NCBI GenBank assembly: GCA_001941225.1
Contig: MSHM01000009.1
Location: forward strand, 1 to 64,000
DNA length: 64,000 bases
DNA from: Oscillospiraceae bacterium Zagget12
GTDB lineage: Bacteria > Bacillota > Clostridia > UBA1381
Reading direction: 5' to 3'
Each line of letters begins with the position of its first letter. Positions within the stretch are counted from its first letter, which is position 1. The translations under genes and the position numbers were made by a program. Positions 28,562 to 63,490 of this stretch are shown here, piece by piece. The notes below the pieces were generated by a model. That model ran no database searches. It was not told where the DNA came from and saw only the letters and a list, made by a program, of their open reading frames with translations.

Positions 28562-28820
28562 AATTCTCCCCTACAACCACAGCAGGGGATTTAGCGTTAT
28601 TTTAAATATAGCGCAATCCCTCATCTGTCGGCTACGCCGACACCTTCCCCCGGGGGAAGGCTTAGGACTTGCGGCAAATTTGATTAGCCTTCCCCTCAGG
28701 GGAAGGTGGCACACGCCGCAGGCGGGTGACGGATGAGGGTTAGCCCGCCCTTACAACCACGCCGGCAAATTTATATCGTATGGGCGACCCTTGTGGTCGC
28801 CCTTTTTTGCGTGCTGGCAA
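28562..28820. repeat. cluster of palindromic repeats in a 550-bp intergenic region
   Basis: 28616-28662 (CCCTCATCTGTCGGC..CACCTTCCCC CGGGGGAAGG) and 28685-28746 (GCCTTCCCCTCAGGGGAAGG..GACGGATGAGGG) are two inverted family A copies that could pair into one large stem. 28774-28808 is family B (GTATGGGCGACC..GGTCGCCC TTTTTT). Nothing coding is seen from 28450 to 29000. Confidence 0.85.
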
Positions 28821-39412: not shown

Positions 39413-39965
39413 GGAATTGTATCAAAAATATATCGCGGGAAATTGCACGGACGAGGAAAAGGCGTTCGTGGAAGAGGAAATAAAAAGAGCGCAAGCCGTA
39501 AGCGATGAGGTTTTCAAGGACCGCAAGGCGGTTGAGTTTACGCCGGTGACGGACGAGGAGGTTTTAAAGGCAAAGAACCAATTTGCAGCGAAAAACCTTG
39601 TGAAAACCGTTGTAATTTCCCTCGCGATAGGCATAGCTCTCATAGCCGTTGTGACGGCGGCTGTTTTCGGACTCGCCGTTCACGGAGCAAGAAAAAATAT
39701 GCGCTACAGCGGCGCTGAGGCGGAAACGATGGTTGCCGAATATATCGTTGACTATGTCGGAACGAATATGGGCAGACAAATAAGCGGAGAGGACATCAAT
39801 ATAAATTATATATACGAAGATGAGCGCGATTTGCAGATGCGTTTTCCTTTGAGCCGCTGCTATTACATCTTCGAATATGAGGTTCGCGCATCGGGATTTG
39901 AATTTGAAGTTGAATTTAATCCCAAAACGGGAGAATGTATTATAACTGATATTGACCGCGATTAA
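39402..39965 (+). CDS. transmembrane anti-sigma-type protein
   Basis: 187 aa, overlapping the sigma gene by 11 nt (ATGGAATTT). A short cytoplasmic part (ELYQKYIAGNCTDEEKAFVEEEI, a zinc-finger-like AS domain without the usual HxxxCxxC) precedes one membrane helix (VKTVVISLAIGIALIAVVTAAVFGLAVHG) and an outside domain with PepSY-like repeat ending (FEFEVEFNPKTGECIITDIDRD). The CTDEEK stretch matches common Clostridial anti-sigma factors by pattern. Likely holds the ECF factor until a signal arrives outside. Confidence 0.82.
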   Translation: MEFKELYQKYIAGNCTDEEKAFVEEEIKRAQAVSDEVFKDRKAVEFTPVTDEEVLKAKNQFAAKNLVKTVVISLAIGIALIAVVTAAVFGLAVHGARKNMRYSGAEAETMVAEYIVDYVGTNMGRQISGEDININYIYEDERDLQMRFPLSRCYYIFEYEVRASGFEFEVEFNPKTGECIITDIDRD

Positions 39966-55658: not shown

Positions 55659-56006
55659 TCAGTTTTCCTCAACGTGAATAAGCATTTGCTCTATAATCTT
55701 TTTAACATGGTCATCGTCAATGGAATAAAACGCGTTTTTCCCATCTCGGCGCGATTTTATAAGCCGCGCCTGCTTAAGCGTTTTAAGCTGATGGCTTATT
55801 GCGGACTGGCTCATTCCAAGCTCTCCGGCGATGTCGTAAACGCACAGCTCCTTATCAAACAGCGCCCATAGGATTCTTATTCTCGTGTTGTCCCCGAATA
55901 CCTTAAACATTTCCGCAAGGTTATTAATTATGTTATCATCGGGAATCTGATTTTTCAGTCTGTCCACAATCTGAGGATTGTATTGACATGAGCTGCACAT
56001 ATCCAT
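55659..56006 (-). CDS. ArsR/SmtB-family metal-sensing repressor
   Basis: 115 aa from MDMCSSCQYNPQIVDRL with GGGAGCG before it. Winged helix: MFKVFGDNTRIRILWALFDKELCVYDIAGELGMSQSAISHQLKTLKQARLIKSRRDGKNAFYSI. At the end DDDHVKKIIEQMLIHVEE has the alpha-5 zinc site spacing D-x-H-x10-H-x2-E of SmtB/CzrA. Two cysteines (CSSC) at the N-terminus could add a second site as in CadC. The alpha-3 'CVC' motif is changed to CVY. No efflux pump is next to it; it faces the RG lyase gene. Confidence 0.93.
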   Translation of the reverse strand: MDMCSSCQYNPQIVDRLKNQIPDDNIINNLAEMFKVFGDNTRIRILWALFDKELCVYDIAGELGMSQSAISHQLKTLKQARLIKSRRDGKNAFYSIDDDHVKKIIEQMLIHVEEN

Positions 56007-56046
56007 TTTCGCCGCTCCCTTCGTATGCTCATACATTCATATATTT

Positions 56047-56075
56047 ATTATACTCGCTTTATTCCGATTTGTCAA
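56047..56075 (-). promoter_or_regulatory. arsR-type gene promoter
   Basis: On the minus strand TTGACA (56075-56070), 17-nt spacer, TATAAT (56052-56047), ideal consensus, about 40 nt before the start; autoregulation likely, operator not identified. Confidence 0.85.
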
Positions 56076-56203
56076 ATGTACTTAAAAATCCGATTAAATT
56101 TTATAAAAATCAGAATTAAATTATAAATACCCACAAAAGTTTTTACAAATATGTTAAAATAAATATTATGAGTAAAAACGTACAAAACGAAAGGAGATAT
56201 ATT

Positions 56204-59113
56204 ATGAAGAAAAATAAAATTTTGTCAGCGGTTATCGCCGCGGCAATGCTTTCATCGTCGGCGGTTTCCGTGTTTGCGGCGGAGGTGGGAGACAGCCTTA
56301 AGATTGCAAATTACGATGAGTCGGCTGCCGAAACGCAGGCTCTGATTGATGCAAGACCCGATATTCAGCGTCCGATGGAAAATCTAAACAGAGGCGCGGT
56401 TGCGGTAAATATGGGTGATTATACATATATTTCGTGGCGTTGGCTCGGCACTGAGAGCACGGATACAAAATATAATGTATACCGCGGCGACACGCTTATC
56501 ACTTCGGAGCCGATAAACGCGACAAACTATACCGACATAAATCCGACCGGAGAGACATATAAAATAGCTCCCGTGCTTGACGGAACGGAGGGCGACCTTG
56601 AAACGGCACAGTCTTGGGACAGCGATTATCTTGAAATTCCCATTCAAAAGCCGGAGGACAATACAATTCAGGGAGAGAGCTACACATATACGCCCGGCGA
56701 CGCGTCCGTCGGCGACCTTGACGGCGACGGCGAATATGAAATCGTTCTCAAATGGGACCCGTCAAACTCTAAGGACGCCGCTCAAGCGGGCTATACCGGA
56801 GAATGTATAATCGACGCCTACGAGACGGACGGCACATTGTTGTGGCGCGTGAATATGGGACCGAATATACGCGCCGGCGCACATGACACTCAATTTATGG
56901 TATACGATTACGACGGCGACGGCAAGGCTGAAATGGCGTGCCGCACGGCGGACGGAACGATTGCGGGCGACGGAACGGTTATAGGCGACGCGGACAGGAA
57001 TTATGCGATAGTCAGCGATGGAAAAAATCTTACGGGACCGCTTTATTTGACCGTGTTCAACGGCGCCGACGGCTCCGTAATCGACACTGTTGATTATGAC
57101 CCGCAGACCACGGGCAAAACCGAAAGCGGAATTGCCTGGGACATCACAGCTTGGGGCGACGGCTGGGGCAACAGAAGTGAGAGGTATCTCGCGTCGGTTG
57201 CGTACCTTGACGGCGAAAGACCGAGTATGGTGTTCGCGAGAGGATATTATACCGGTCCCGAGGGCGACACGGGCGGCAGAACGGTAATTGCCGCGTATGA
57301 CCTTGTGGACGGAAAAATAGTGCAGAAATGGCGCTTTGATACGCTTGATTACAATAATAAGTATATCGGACAGGGCAACCACTCTATGAGCGCGGCGGAC
57401 GTTGATTATGACGGCTGCGATGAGCTTATTTACGGCGCGCTTGCCATAGATAACGACGGTACGCCGATGTATTCGACAGGCTTGGGACACGGCGACGCGC
57501 AGCACGTAGGCGATCTTGACCCGTCAAGACCGGGACTTGAGGTATATTCCTGCCACGAGGAAACGGGTTCCGATTACGGCTATGAAATGCGCGACGCGCG
57601 CACCGGTGAAATCCTGTACGGAGAGCGTACCGGCAACGATAACGGACGCGGCACATCGGACGATATTGACCCGAATTATCCGGGCTGCGAGGGCTGGTCG
57701 GCGGCAGGCATTCTGACCGCTGCGGACGGCACCGTAATTTCAACAAGCTACACAATGCCCGCGAACTTCCTATGCTACTGGGACGGAGATTTGGGACGCG
57801 AGGTTCAGGATAATATTTACATAAGCAAATGGAACAGCGATGCCGCAAAGGTTGAAACAATATTCACCGCGTCGGGCTGCACGTCCGTAAACGGCACAAA
57901 GGCTAATCCGTCGCTTACGGCGGATCTTTTCGGCGACTGGCGCGAGGAGGTAATGTATCCCACAAAGGACGGCAGCGCGCTCAGAATTTATACTACAACA
58001 ACGCCCACAAGCTACAAAATACCTACTCTTATGCACGATATTCAGTACAGAATGCACGTTGCGTATCAGAATACCTGCTATAATCAGCCGACACATTTGA
58101 GCTATTACCTCGGCTACGACACCGAAACGATACCCGTGCCGCAGATGTACACGGTAGGGGATAACGCGAAAAATCCCGACCTTGCACAGAAGTCCTGGAG
58201 CATAGACGACCTGTACACCGGCGAAAAGGTTGAGCTTGTGCTTGACACTCCGACGGCACTTGTAAACGGCGTTCCGCAGAGAGTTGACAATGATAATGAA
58301 GATGTTGTTCCGTATCTTGCGGAGGGCGACAGAACTCTCGTTCCGCTCAGATTTATTTCGGAGGCGTTCGGCGCGGAGGTAAGCTGGAACGGCGATACTC
58401 AAGGAATAACAATAGAGCTTGACGGAGATGAAATTCTTATGAATATAGGCTCCGCCGATTATACGGTAAACGGCGCCGCAATGCAGATGGACGTTGCGCC
58501 GGTAATAATGAATGAAAGAACAATGGTTCCGCTCCGCGCGATAGCCGAATCCCTTTCAAAGAAGGTGTATTACAGCGACGGATATATCGCCGTAAGCGAT
58601 GTTGAGATGAGCATTGACGGCGCGGCGGCGAGAAAGGAAAGCATCAAGTCCGCTCCGGTTCCGGAAAAGGTTGAGCGCGTGGCGATTAACGGCACGGGCG
58701 AGAAATATTATTCAAATCAGCTCGACGTTTACGCGGTTGAGGCGAGCGATAACGACGGTAATGTTGAAACGGGCGCGGTTGACCTTGACATAAGCACGCG
58801 CTGGTCGGCATACGGTCCGAATACGCTCACGATAGACCTCGGCGATACGCAGGAGGTAACCGGCGTTGCGATAGCTATGTGGAAGGGCAGCGAGAGAATT
58901 TATCCGTTCACAATCGAATATTCTGAGGACGGAGAAACCTGGCAGACGGCGCTTTCAAAGACGCAAAATACCGGCGAAACAGAGGAATTTGAAAAGTATA
59001 CGTTCCCCGAAACCGTCAGCGCGAGATATATCCGCTATAACGGCGACGGCGCGACCGACCCGACAAAGAATTATTGTCATATAAGTGAAATAGCCGTGCT
59101 CGGCGCGGAATAA
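56204..59113 (+). CDS. rhamnogalacturonan lyase (PL11) with stalk and discoidin-like modules
   Basis: 969 aa from MKKNKILSAVIAAAM; AAAGGAGA precedes this ATG. Signal peptide to ~residue 30 (VFAAE). PL11 eight-bladed propeller to ~residue 670: DIQRPMENLNRGAVAV, YISWRWLGTE, SVGDLDGDGEYEIVLKWDPSN, YDYDGDGKAEMACRTADG, GQGNHSMSAADVDYDGCDEL, GLGHGDAQHVGDL, SLTADLFGDWREEVMYP. Then a copper-amine-oxidase-N-like stalk (DRTLVPLRFISEAFGA; RTMVPLRAIAESL) and a C-terminal F5/8-type carbohydrate-binding sandwich (LTIDLGDTQEVTGVAIAM). Secreted enzyme that cuts the rhamnogalacturonan-I backbone; products would go to GH88. Confidence 0.94.
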   Translation: MKKNKILSAVIAAAMLSSSAVSVFAAEVGDSLKIANYDESAAETQALIDARPDIQRPMENLNRGAVAVNMGDYTYISWRWLGTESTDTKYNVYRGDTLITSEPINATNYTDINPTGETYKIAPVLDGTEGDLETAQSWDSDYLEIPIQKPEDNTIQGESYTYTPGDASVGDLDGDGEYEIVLKWDPSNSKDAAQAGYTGECIIDAYETDGTLLWRVNMGPNIRAGAHDTQFMVYDYDGDGKAEMACRTADGTIAGDGTVIGDADRNYAIVSDGKNLTGPLYLTVFNGADGSVIDTVDYDPQTTGKTESGIAWDITAWGDGWGNRSERYLASVAYLDGERPSMVFARGYYTGPEGDTGGRTVIAAYDLVDGKIVQKWRFDTLDYNNKYIGQGNHSMSAADVDYDGCDELIYGALAIDNDGTPMYSTGLGHGDAQHVGDLDPSRPGLEVYSCHEETGSDYGYEMRDARTGEILYGERTGNDNGRGTSDDIDPNYPGCEGWSAAGILTAADGTVISTSYTMPANFLCYWDGDLGREVQDNIYISKWNSDAAKVETIFTASGCTSVNGTKANPSLTADLFGDWREEVMYPTKDGSALRIYTTTTPTSYKIPTLMHDIQYRMHVAYQNTCYNQPTHLSYYLGYDTETIPVPQMYTVGDNAKNPDLAQKSWSIDDLYTGEKVELVLDTPTALVNGVPQRVDNDNEDVVPYLAEGDRTLVPLRFISEAFGAEVSWNGDTQGITIELDGDEILMNIGSADYTVNGAAMQMDVAPVIMNERTMVPLRAIAESLSKKVYYSDGYIAVSDVEMSIDGAAARKESIKSAPVPEKVERVAINGTGEKYYSNQLDVYAVEASDNDGNVETGAVDLDISTRWSAYGPNTLTIDLGDTQEVTGVAIAMWKGSERIYPFTIEYSEDGETWQTALSKTQNTGETEEFEKYTFPETVSARYIRYNGDGATDPTKNYCHISEIAVLGAE

Positions 59114-59114
59114 T

Positions 59115-59157
59115 AAAAACTGTAGGTGTTTGACTGTCAAACACCTACAGTTTTTTT
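59115..59157 (+). terminator. terminator after RG lyase
   Basis: ACTGTAGGTGTTTGA (59119-59133) pairs with the perfect complement (59137-59151) around CTG, followed by T7. Confidence 0.96.
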
Positions 59158-59189: not shown

Positions 59190-59250
59190 CCTTCCCCCTG
59201 GGGGAAGGTGGCACACGCCGTAGGCGGGTGACGGATGAGGGTCAGCCCGC
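59190..59250. repeat. palindromic intergenic repeat (family A)
   Basis: AGCCTTCCCCCTGGGGGAAGG, then GGCACACGCCGTAGGCGGGTG, then ACGGATGAGGGT, the same order as at 28685-28740; 59251-59348 beyond it holds no gene. Confidence 0.85.
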
Positions 59251-59348: not shown

Positions 59349-59377
59349 TTGACAAAGTATCGGGGGGGGGTTATAAT
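59349..59377 (+). promoter_or_regulatory. promoter with G9 tract in its spacer
   Basis: TTGACA (59349-59354) and TATAAT (59372-59377) stand exactly 17 nt apart, and nine consecutive G (59362-59370) fill half the spacer. The start codon is 64 nt downstream. Slippage of the G-tract would change the spacing, so the sequence as written is the optimal, likely ON, form. Confidence 0.9.
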
Positions 59378-59440
59378 TATTGTGTATATAAATCCAAAAA
59401 TATACAAAAATAAATTTTCATACAAAAAAGGAGGACAATT

Positions 59441-62400
59441 ATGAAAAAGCTCAGAAAATTTTTAGCTCTCATCACGGCGACGGCTATGCTTACCGCAGGC
59501 GCGGCAATACCGGCGTTCGCCGAAGTTGATGATGAGCAGGCTGAAACAGCGGCAGTCACACTGTTCGCGGAAGAAACCGGTTCATCAACCGTTGCGACTA
59601 TCGGCGATGCGGAATACACCGATTTGGCAAGCGCATTTTCAGCGGCAGCCGACGGCGACACCGTTACACTGGCAGACGATGTAACGCTTAACAGCTCGCT
59701 TGTGCTTAGCCTTAGCAGCAAATCCGTAACATTGGATTTGAACGGCAAGACAATCACATTCGCTTACAGCGAAGGCACTTTTGGCGGTGCTACGCTGTCA
59801 GACGGCGCATGGGGACTTAAGGTTACAAGCGGTACCCTCACGATTGAGGATACAGCAGGCAACGGCGGAATCACGGCAACCGACGAAAATACATACGTTG
59901 ATGTGGTAGGCGCGTCAACCGACGGAACACTTAATATTCTCGGCGGTACATATTCCACCAACTCAATTTATGAGGCGGTAGTATTCGGAGCAGGCAACGC
60001 GGTTATTAACATTTACGGCGGTACATTCACCAACTCGGCAACAAGCTATAAGTATAATTCTACTTATACTAACGGATTGGTTCTGAATATCGGTAACAGC
60101 TCAACCGCGACAATCAATGTTAAGGGCGGTACATTTACAGGCTACAGCCCCGTGAACGGTGATGACAATGTTGACACCGGTTCATTCGTAGCGTCAGGCT
60201 ATACATACACTGACGGTACAGTATCGGCAGATACAGCGGTTGCAACAGTAGACGGCGTAGGCTATGCTACACTTGAGGACGCACTCGCGGCTGCAAGCGA
60301 CGGCACAACAGTTACGCTTTCGGACGACTTAACCGTTGAGTCACAGCTGACAATCAGCAAAGACATCACATTGGATTTGAACGGCTGTACGCTTACAAAC
60401 AACTTTGTAAACACAGACGGCAGCGGCATATACAGATTCTCATTGATTACAACAGCCGATGTAACCATTAAGAACGGTACTTATACAGTAACCGCGGCGA
60501 ATGACGGCGATGTTGAAACAAGAGGCATTGTTGAATCGTCGGGCAATCTTACGCTTGACGGCGTAACCGCGTCATGCACAGGTATAAATGTCGGCAACTA
60601 TGCTGAGGGCGGAACGCTCACAATTACGGATTCAACGATTTCCGGCAGTTACGCGGTAGGCTCGTTTGCAAACAAGAGTACCGTGGTTATCACAGGCTCG
60701 ACTCTTACGGCTACCACCTGCGGCTTGTATCACAACGGTTCATATTACGGACTTAATATGACTGTTACCGATACAGTTATAGATATAACCGGCGTTTATA
60801 TTTCGGGCAGCACATACACAACCGCAAATAACGGCGGCGTAAATCAGCAGGCTACATTTACAAATTGTACGATTACGGGCGCGACCGGTATCGAGGTTAA
60901 GTATACCGATTTGACATTGAATAATTGTACAATAACAGCAACGGCTGAAACACCTACGTTTACGCAGTATAATAACGGTTCGACGACAACAGGCTTTGCG
61001 GTTGTTGCGACGGATAACTCTATGGAGCCGGATGATCCCAAGCCGGGCTGTACTGTAACGATTACGGACGGCACATATACCGGTCTTGTAGGATTGTCGC
61101 AGCTTATTGGCGATGATAGCGATGATTATGAGGATTTCGTAGAATCAACATATGTAATTTACAGCGGCACATTTGATTGTGACGTATCCGCTTATGTTGC
61201 CTCCAACCACTATTATGACGAGGCAACCGGTTCGGTATTGCAGTCAAACACAATCGTAACGGACAACGGCGAGGCGGAGCTTGAAAACGGCGCATCGGCT
61301 AAGGTTACTCTTACCGATTTGGAGAGTACTCTTAAATCAATGGACGATGTATACGACGCAACCGAGGTTTCTACAATCGAGGTTGTTGTAACAACAGATG
61401 AATCAGAGGTTGACGAGTTCGTTTCACCAACCACAACTCCCGAAACCACATTAAGCCCGAACGCTATCGGCGTGGATATTTCGGTTGTAAAGACCGATAG
61501 TGCCGGTGTGGCGACAACAATTCCTGTAGAAAACCAGGAGGTAGAAATTGAATTACCGATTGCATTTGAAGAAGGCAGTGTAACGGTTTATCTTATTGCC
61601 GATAGCGGAACCGAAGTTGTAACTCCGGTCACCGTCAGCGGCAATGTAGTTAAATTCACAGCGCCGTCATTCTCGACATATTATATTGACGGTAACCCGG
61701 CAACGGTTGACAGTACAAACATAGCTGATAGCGTAACGCTTAAGCTTGAAGAGGTAACAACGGGCGTAGCGGGTTCGTATTATATCAGACTGTACGCTGA
61801 TGAAGTCAGCGGCGCAACAAGGTACATCAACCGCTTTATGGCGGCGGAGCTTGCGTTCGAGCTTGATGACAGCTCAGGCTATGATATAACCAATATCGGC
61901 GCGGTTTCAATCACGCCGGCATCGTATATCAATGTTGTAAACAACGGCAACGGCGAGTATGAGTTTAACGTAAACGGTGATATAGATACAAGCACCGGCG
62001 AGGAAGTCAGCGATATAACCGGAGCTTATGTAACATTGGGAATCTTGAACGTAACCGGCGACGGTAACTTTAGGCTTTTGCTTAATAATGACAGTACAAC
62101 ATTCGCAAGCAACACGGCTAACCAGGTTCAGACTGCGGAATATTCAAATAATATCGTAAGCACGTATACGGTAGACGGCAGTACACTGAATTACAGCTCA
62201 CCTGTCGCAAGCGGCAATATACAACTTAAGCAGACACAGCTTACAATCAATGTATTGTTCCCGAACACCGTAAGCGCGCAGGCTGTAGCATACAACGATA
62301 TGAAGGTTACATTAAACGGCGTGAATATGACGAATAATGAAATCGACTTCGGCGGCGACAGCTTGACCGCAACCGGTGCTACAATATCGGCGGTAGACGG

Positions 62401-62818
62401 CACATCGTATGATTACGAGGACGCAACCGGCTACACAACGACTGTAACAGTATACAGAAATTACGCGACAACCCTTGTATTCGAGGGAGCGGGCTACAGA
62501 ACCTACAGAACGTCGATTACTCCGTCAGGCAGCACGGCGACTGTAACGGTATGGAATAACGCTATGAGCCAGGATATGTATGTCGCAACTTCAACCGATA
62601 ACGCGATGGGTAGTATTGAAAAGGCAGTAACATTCCTCGCGGGCGATATTGTCGCTGATGAGAATATCAACCTGTACGATTTGTCGGCGGTAGTATCTTA
62701 CTTCGGTAAAGAAAATACAGTAACCGCTGCATCTGAGTTCGCTAAGTATGACCTTGACCGCGACGGTAAGATTGACTCAAAGGATATAGCAATGGTACTT
62801 GTATCTTGGGATAAATAA
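59441..62818 (+). CDS. large secreted beta-helix protein with C-terminal dockerin
   Basis: 1125 aa; AAAGGAGGACAATT before the ATG. Signal peptide KKLRKFLALITATAMLTAGAAIPAFA. Residues ~45-560 hold two similar units (YTDLASAFSAAADGDTVTLADDV; YATLEDALAAASDGTTVTLSDDL) each followed by LDLNGKT-type beta-helix rungs (GGTFTNS, NCTITG). A beta-sandwich part (~770-1060) follows, and the last ~59 residues (GDIVADENINLYDLSAVVSYFGKENTV...YDLDRDGKIDSKDIAMVL) form a type I dockerin with two calcium loops. It may attach to a cohesin-bearing scaffold or cell surface; no catalytic motif is visible. Natural phase variation is suggested by its promoter. Confidence 0.88.
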   Translation: MKKLRKFLALITATAMLTAGAAIPAFAEVDDEQAETAAVTLFAEETGSSTVATIGDAEYTDLASAFSAAADGDTVTLADDVTLNSSLVLSLSSKSVTLDLNGKTITFAYSEGTFGGATLSDGAWGLKVTSGTLTIEDTAGNGGITATDENTYVDVVGASTDGTLNILGGTYSTNSIYEAVVFGAGNAVINIYGGTFTNSATSYKYNSTYTNGLVLNIGNSSTATINVKGGTFTGYSPVNGDDNVDTGSFVASGYTYTDGTVSADTAVATVDGVGYATLEDALAAASDGTTVTLSDDLTVESQLTISKDITLDLNGCTLTNNFVNTDGSGIYRFSLITTADVTIKNGTYTVTAANDGDVETRGIVESSGNLTLDGVTASCTGINVGNYAEGGTLTITDSTISGSYAVGSFANKSTVVITGSTLTATTCGLYHNGSYYGLNMTVTDTVIDITGVYISGSTYTTANNGGVNQQATFTNCTITGATGIEVKYTDLTLNNCTITATAETPTFTQYNNGSTTTGFAVVATDNSMEPDDPKPGCTVTITDGTYTGLVGLSQLIGDDSDDYEDFVESTYVIYSGTFDCDVSAYVASNHYYDEATGSVLQSNTIVTDNGEAELENGASAKVTLTDLESTLKSMDDVYDATEVSTIEVVVTTDESEVDEFVSPTTTPETTLSPNAIGVDISVVKTDSAGVATTIPVENQEVEIELPIAFEEGSVTVYLIADSGTEVVTPVTVSGNVVKFTAPSFSTYYIDGNPATVDSTNIADSVTLKLEEVTTGVAGSYYIRLYADEVSGATRYINRFMAAELAFELDDSSGYDITNIGAVSITPASYINVVNNGNGEYEFNVNGDIDTSTGEEVSDITGAYVTLGILNVTGDGNFRLLLNNDSTTFASNTANQVQTAEYSNNIVSTYTVDGSTLNYSSPVASGNIQLKQTQLTINVLFPNTVSAQAVAYNDMKVTLNGVNMTNNEIDFGGDSLTATGATISAVDGTSYDYEDATGYTTTVTVYRNYATTLVFEGAGYRTYRTSITPSGSTATVTVWNNAMSQDMYVATSTDNAMGSIEKAVTFLAGDIVADENINLYDLSAVVSYFGKENTVTAASEFAKYDLDRDGKIDSKDIAMVLVSWDK

Positions 62819-63149: not shown

Positions 63150-63490
63150 TATATTTTCGGCAACGCTCTGCAAGGCTCCCCTACGAGGGGAGCTGTCGCC
63201 GAAAGGCGACTGAGGGGTCTTACGCAAATTTACCCTCATTCGTCACCCGCTTACAGCGGGCGCCACCTTCCCCCAGGGGAAGGCTGCCATATTTGCCGCA
63301 AACCCTAAGCCTTCCCCTTGGGGGTGAACGATTTGCAAAGCAAATTGTTCACCTAGTAGGGGAGGCTCCCGGTGCCGACAAATCCACCTCGTAGGGGCGC
63401 CCATTGGGCGCCCGCGGGCGGGCAATGCCCGCCCCTACAAGCACAGCCGGCAAATCCACCTCGTAAGGGCGCCCATTGGTCGCCCGCGCT
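63150..63490. repeat. cluster of palindromic repeats, families A and B
   Basis: 63170-63218 (GCTCCCCTACGAGGGGAGC, then GTCGCCGAAAGGCGAC, then TGAGGGG), 63236-63287 (CCCTCATTCGTCACCCGC..CACCTTCCCCCAGGGGAAGG) and 63384-63490 (two copies of family B: AATCCACCTCGTAGGGGCGCCCATTGGGCGCC). The hairpin CAAATTGTTCACC lies near 63326-63352. No gene between 63147 and 63587. Confidence 0.85.

Follow-up and report, generated by a model that had tools for sequence, protein, structure and literature searches.

The closest described parallel to the locus analysed here is the porA promoter of Neisseria meningitidis, which carries a poly-G tract between its −10 and −35 elements (PMC3639595). A change from 11G to 10G at this tract halves surface expression, with escape from bactericidal antibody (PMC3639595). 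Homopolymers can also act within reading frames, as at the poly-G tract of N. meningitidis lgtG (PMC3639595), and homopolymeric tracts have been surveyed (PMC2831843). Two reports on Helicobacter pylori describe repeat tracts in both the promoter region and the reading frame of the adhesin gene sabA (PMC2715451, PMC4081817), and two further reports describe invertible promoters that randomly switch surface or other functions in gut bacteria (PMC8748976, PMC11892184).

In the window (the whole stretch of 64,000 nucleotides that was analysed), a run of nine G lies in the promoter spacer of a dockerin protein gene. The likeness to porA lies in a coding-strand poly-G run of 9–11 G within the spacer ahead of a major surface protein; one-base changes alter porA expression. 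The porA gene, however, belongs to a Gram-negative pathogen and encodes an outer-membrane porin, whereas the present lineage is of clostridial type, the proteins are secreted dockerin and S-layer-homology (SLH) proteins, and several paralogous genes of a single genome share the promoter type. A switch of this kind is already known and has so far been described mainly in pathogens. What appears new, as judged from the open-licence literature, is the application of such a switch to surface proteins of the dockerin and SLH kinds and its occurrence at several loci per genome in bacteria that are uncultured and apparently commensal; in that literature we found no work joining phase variation with dockerins and no report of poly-G promoter switching in gut Clostridia. 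We put the probability at about 0.8 that this run of nine G acts as a porA-type contingency locus, in which slippage would drive transcriptional phase variation across a multi-gene surface repertoire.

The promoter and its gene

The features of the locus, in window coordinates, are as follows.

56168–59113, + strand: upstream gene, context and not switched; rhamnogalacturonan lyase family 11 with Cu_amine_oxidN1 and F5/8-C (Pfam)
59115–59155, + strand: terminator-like hairpin at the end of the upstream gene; 19-pair stem and T tail, 20-nt perfect inverted repeat
59349–59354, + strand: −35 element TTGACA, perfect consensus
59362–59370, + strand: run of nine G inside the spacer, proposed as the slippage switch, read directly from the sequence
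59372–59377, + strand: −10 element TATAAT, perfect consensus, 17 nt past the −35 element
59428–59434, + strand: ribosome-binding site AAGGAGG, 6 nt ahead of the ATG at 59441
59441–62818, + strand: candidate switched gene; 1125-aa predicted secreted protein with a C-terminal dockerin at residues 1067–1119 (open reading frame, Pfam)

An earlier note on this DNA had placed TTGACA and TATAAT 17 nt apart with nine G filling the spacer. The spacing was confirmed and both hexamers are perfect, together scoring 12/12 against consensus. The spacer at 59349–59377 reads AAGTATC-GGGGGGGGG-T (17 nt), so that the run is of exactly nine G but occupies 9 of the 17 bases rather than the whole spacer. It is the only G run of eight or more in the 64-kb window. 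As in switches of the porA type, the homopolymer sits between the −35 and −10 elements of a functional-looking promoter, it is long enough for slippage (about eight or more) and far above chance, and the product carries marks of secretion or surface exposure, namely a signal-like N-terminus (judged by eye) and a dockerin. The tract at this promoter is known in a single assembled length, G9.

The terminator-like hairpin at 59115–59155 closes the upstream gene, so the dockerin gene most likely has its own promoter. Invertible promoters differ in being driven by DNA inversion; between 59110 and 59440 we found no inverted repeats flanking the promoter except the terminator hairpin. A search of viral contigs for copies of the exact 59349–59377 promoter, as strain copies, found none. 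Elsewhere in the window, a second perfect TTGACA-17-TATAAT promoter (56047–56075, − strand) has no G tract and lies upstream of a 125-aa regulator-like open reading frame (55659–56036), providing an in-window contrast to the poly-G promoter. A dispersed intergenic repeat around GTGACGGATGAGGG has four matches in the window (28726–28739, 39546–39559, 59228–59241 and 63233–63246) against 0.15 expected; it is also present upstream of other dockerin genes and resembles a small mobile element or a REP-like one.

The claim that this promoter drives a 1125-aa dockerin protein held up as well: AAGGAGG at 59428–59434 and the ATG at 59441 open that reading frame, and its C-terminal type I dockerin matches Pfam PF00404 at 30.9 bits against a cut-off of 22.9, with a six-frame search match at C9:62639–62797 (C9 being the contig of the window). 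We call the protein secreted on the basis of a clear signal-peptide-like N-terminus, judged by eye. The proposed beta-helix found weaker backing. A single-sequence model of residues 30–600 has a mean pLDDT of 51, the structures that it weakly matches are for the most part beta-helix proteins, tailspikes and pectin methylesterases among them, and Pfam Beta_helix was detected only in a paralogue; a beta-helix part is plausible at this level of model confidence. The upstream lyase gene suggests a pectin-using organism. Separately, a six-frame search gave a cohesin match above cut-off at C27:146691–147002, which hmmscan of the open reading frame did not report. This cohesin-like domain is part of a secreted protein of 404 aa that also has Cu_amine_oxidN1 and to which the dockerin proteins may dock.

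The mechanism we propose begins at replication, when the G run would gain or lose one base by slipped-strand mispairing. A gain or loss of one or more bases would alter the spacing between the −35 and −10 elements and thereby shift binding by a sigma-70-type RNA polymerase, so that transcription of the dockerin gene at 59441 could be raised, lowered or silenced. The assembled form, G9 with a spacer of 17, would correspond to the classical optimum, and the promoter is predicted to be ON as assembled. The analysis itself establishes the promoter architecture and how it recurs, its strand specificity, its association with secreted proteins and the differences in tract length among copies and orthologues. 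Slippage in living cells, its effect on transcription and any benefit are what we infer here; possible benefits include evasion of phage or immunity, varied adhesion and varied substrate use.

Poly-G tracts across the genome and its family

A single locus alone would carry little weight, and an ordinary strong promoter could by coincidence hold nine G. The genome assembly (1.9 Mb, 44 contigs, 77% complete) contains 11 G runs of eight or more and 52 perfect TTGACA-N17-TATAAT sites. Two of these 52 have a long G run in the spacer, on C9 (G9) and at C35:14212–14240 (G12), where 0.0014 would be expected (P about 8 × 10⁻⁷). Five of the 11 G runs sit between TTGACA and TA(T/C)AAT:

C9:59362: poly-G spacer promoter, G9, spacer 17
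C27:142909: poly-G spacer promoter, G11, spacer 18
C29:50078: poly-G spacer promoter, G9, spacer 18
C36:7881: poly-G spacer promoter, G9, spacer 16
C35:14218: poly-G spacer promoter, G12, spacer 17

With two such sites among perfect 17-nt promoters, five in all, and the pattern repeated in relatives, coincidence is refuted, and we give it a negligible probability.

Behind the five promoters lie genes for four dockerin proteins and one SLH protein. A Pfam search found ten dockerin genes in the genome, and five G tracts fall inside the 400 nt that precede a dockerin gene, against 0.012 expected (P about 6 × 10⁻¹³). The link is not absolute, as the dockerin genes on C5, C8 and at C36:25270 have no G tract. 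The poly-G-driven dockerin gene at C27:139724–142851 has a broken frame in the assembly, and an intact homologue is found in the congener G006 on contig C157. Other tracts were considered and set aside. At C41:37350 a G12 run follows TTGACA about 0.3 kb upstream of a dockerin gene, but it lies 21 nt before a poor −10 element and was not counted as a spacer promoter; the tracts on C17, on C23 and at C36:21182 show no clear promoter and no clean frame switch. The G8 at C23:185626 falls in the 5′ part of a sigma-factor-like open reading frame, whose upstream frame hinges on tract length.

A further G9 (C27:123514–123522) belongs to the reading frame of a gene rather than to a promoter. It directly follows an early start codon with a good ribosome site, in a gene at C27:119469–123524 with a 1351-aa dockerin open reading frame. 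At G8 or G11 a signal peptide is joined to the 1351-aa frame, whereas at G7, G9 and G10 translation meets a stop after 13–15 residues; the frame is thus open at every third length. Because G9 stops after 15 residues, this dockerin gene is OFF as assembled. The arrangement resembles loci of the lgtG type in that the tract follows the gene start and the frame is open at G8 or G11 only; it differs in gene class and organism, and in that a frame tract and promoter tracts occur within one gene family. Promoter tracts together with this frame tract indicate that both transcription and translation apparently serve to switch surface dockerins. In sabA, slippage tracts likewise control an adhesin gene at both levels, but there one gene has both tract types, whereas here the two types are divided among paralogues and the promoter run is poly-G in the core spacer.

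The same promoter type occurs in 10 of 70 same-family genomes. All 21 readable downstream open reading frames in the family have a signal-like N-terminus (by eye, not by a dedicated predictor), and the encoded proteins include dockerin, SLH, BspA-type LRR, GH26-like and Cu_amine_oxidN1 proteins. The poly-G spacer pattern gave 17 matches in 8 of 199 genomes, poly-C in its place was found in 0 of 199, and the poly-G promoter pattern read backwards was absent from every genome scanned. In G037, a relative from another genus, at least six dockerin genes have their promoter or leader marked by a G tract. At C27:9375 in that genome, G11 lies within a short upstream open reading frame that has its own ribosome site and precedes a dockerin gene. 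Tract length there sets whether the small frame meets an immediate stop or runs out of frame over the dockerin start, a possible leader-ORF switch.

Tract length, spacers and rival readings

Tract lengths differ among same-flank copies, among orthologues and between overlapping contig ends, in each case at sister loci of the G9 promoter. In Ca. Ancillula, 13 copies of TTGACAAGC-Gn-TGCTATAAT have n of 10, 11, 12, 13 or 14. Orthologous promoters of genomes G011 and G007 carry G9 or G10 in one and G11 in the other. Within G011, contig C19 at its end and contig C27 at its start overlap in one locus, where the flanks (67 and 27 nt) are identical and the tract is G10 in one and G9 in the other.

These differences bear on whether the G run is instead a fixed element with no switching: a protein-binding site, for an activator or a repressor, or a structural promoter element in which stiff G-tract DNA tunes promoter strength. 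We consider this unlikely. It would account for a tract found on the coding strand and within the spacer without exception, and some orthologous tracts do have equal length (G011:C2 and G007:C4, both G11). A binding site should nevertheless hold its length, yet same-flank copies run from G10 to G14 in one genome; it should tolerate interruptions, yet tracts in the sampled loci are uninterrupted and G5–G6 spacers are absent there. The G tract inside the frame of a same-family gene stands where promoter binding makes no sense.

Spacer lengths are consistent with the slippage switch. Poly-G promoters have spacers of 14–21 nt, with 17 nt in 16 of 150 (counting tracts down to G7 in 50 genomes), whereas ordinary consensus promoters in the same public loci have a spacer of 17 in 16 of 27 (P = 1 × 10⁻⁷). 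Such a spread is the expected look of assembled snapshots of a switching spacer. A strict avoidance of spacer 17 (5 of 125) weakened to the 16 of 150 above once tracts down to G7 were counted; the apparent avoidance in the first sample came largely from requiring G9 or more. Loss of mismatch repair as the cause of tract instability is ruled out by the presence of MutS in the genome itself and in 27 of 29 genomes tested, and any slippage would accordingly proceed at the rate of a cell with working repair.

Short-read sequencing is known to handle poly-G poorly. The genomes concerned are metagenome-assembled and their contigs break at tracts, which raises the alternative of an assembly or base-calling artefact, or of relic tracts with no present function. 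Three dockerin-gene contigs of G006 (C106, C120 and C157) begin or finish at the −10 element or inside the G run, and contig C145 of G037 finishes in G15 directly ahead of the −10 element. Among the public matches listed, 9 of 119 sites are no more than 100 nt from the end of a contig, where 1.3 would be expected (P = 8 × 10⁻⁶); the control for this excess comprised ten non-promoter G runs, too few to exclude a homopolymer artefact. The breaks and the contig-end excess may partly reflect homopolymer sequencing trouble, and sequencing or PCR homopolymer error can produce contig breaks and differences of ±1 G in short-read assemblies. Against artefact or relic as the whole explanation, intact hexamers bound the tracts at several loci of one genome and in 50 public genomes that include cultured strains, and the family tracts specifically precede genes for secreted proteins. 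We regard this alternative as very improbable.

The earlier note's central proposal of a phase-variable promoter thus gains support from five poly-G spacer promoters, from relatives, from frame tracts and from length variation at sister loci.

Breadth across bacteria and meaning

An exact-pattern scan of one genome per species recovered at least 119 loci, mostly from gut samples. Lineages among the matches listed are clostridial, Bacilli/Mollicute-like, Saccharibacteria, Ca. Ancillula, Selenomonadaceae, spirochaete and Helicobacter, together with Streptobacillus notomytis; a few environmental Chloroflexi matches may be a repeat family rather than promoters. Also among the matches listed, 66 of 98 downstream open reading frames look secreted or membrane-bound by a crude hydrophobicity rule. 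Whole-genome counts in 50 public genomes from that scan gave 238 poly-G spacer promoters, with five or more in 14 of the 50 and the highest counts in Ca. Ancillula (25), two rabbit-gut Bacilli (23 and 20) and S. notomytis (21). The 21 promoters of S. notomytis (G219) occur in one cultured strain. Further cultured carriers include Hydrogenoanaerobacterium saccharovorans An564, with 7 sites, and Pumilibacter muris CLA-AA-M08, with 2.

The carriers are unrelated, mostly gut or host-associated lineages. The earlier note had called the present genome clostridial and apparently commensal; the lineage is indeed of clostridial type, and a commensal life is our presumption alongside poly-G relatives that are mostly gut- or host-associated. 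The same arrangement at several surface-protein genes here and in many bacteria makes it probable that the poly-G promoters form a set of switches, on/off or up/down, that are thrown at random. On balance we favour, with less assurance than for the locus itself, the broader reading that they represent a widespread and convergent form of transcriptional phase variation, acting at multiple loci in bacteria that are uncultured and mostly host-associated (clostridial, Bacilli/Mollicute-like, Saccharibacteria, Ca. Ancillula, Selenomonadaceae and Streptobacillus), where a genome could switch as many as about 25 genes.

If true, this broader reading would contradict the idea that it is essentially pathogens whose genomes hold many phase-variable loci. 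The work that we found on random switching in gut bacteria concerns invertible promoters; poly-G slippage switches would escape it. The 50 public genomes with 238 promoters make the question testable in existing reads. In the present genome the device would be shared over a paralogous repertoire, with four dockerin genes and one SLH gene switched by promoter and one dockerin gene by its frame tract, and many different sets of surface proteins would therefore be expected among the cells of one clone. Gene content alone, then, does not reveal which surface proteins such a bacterium shows.
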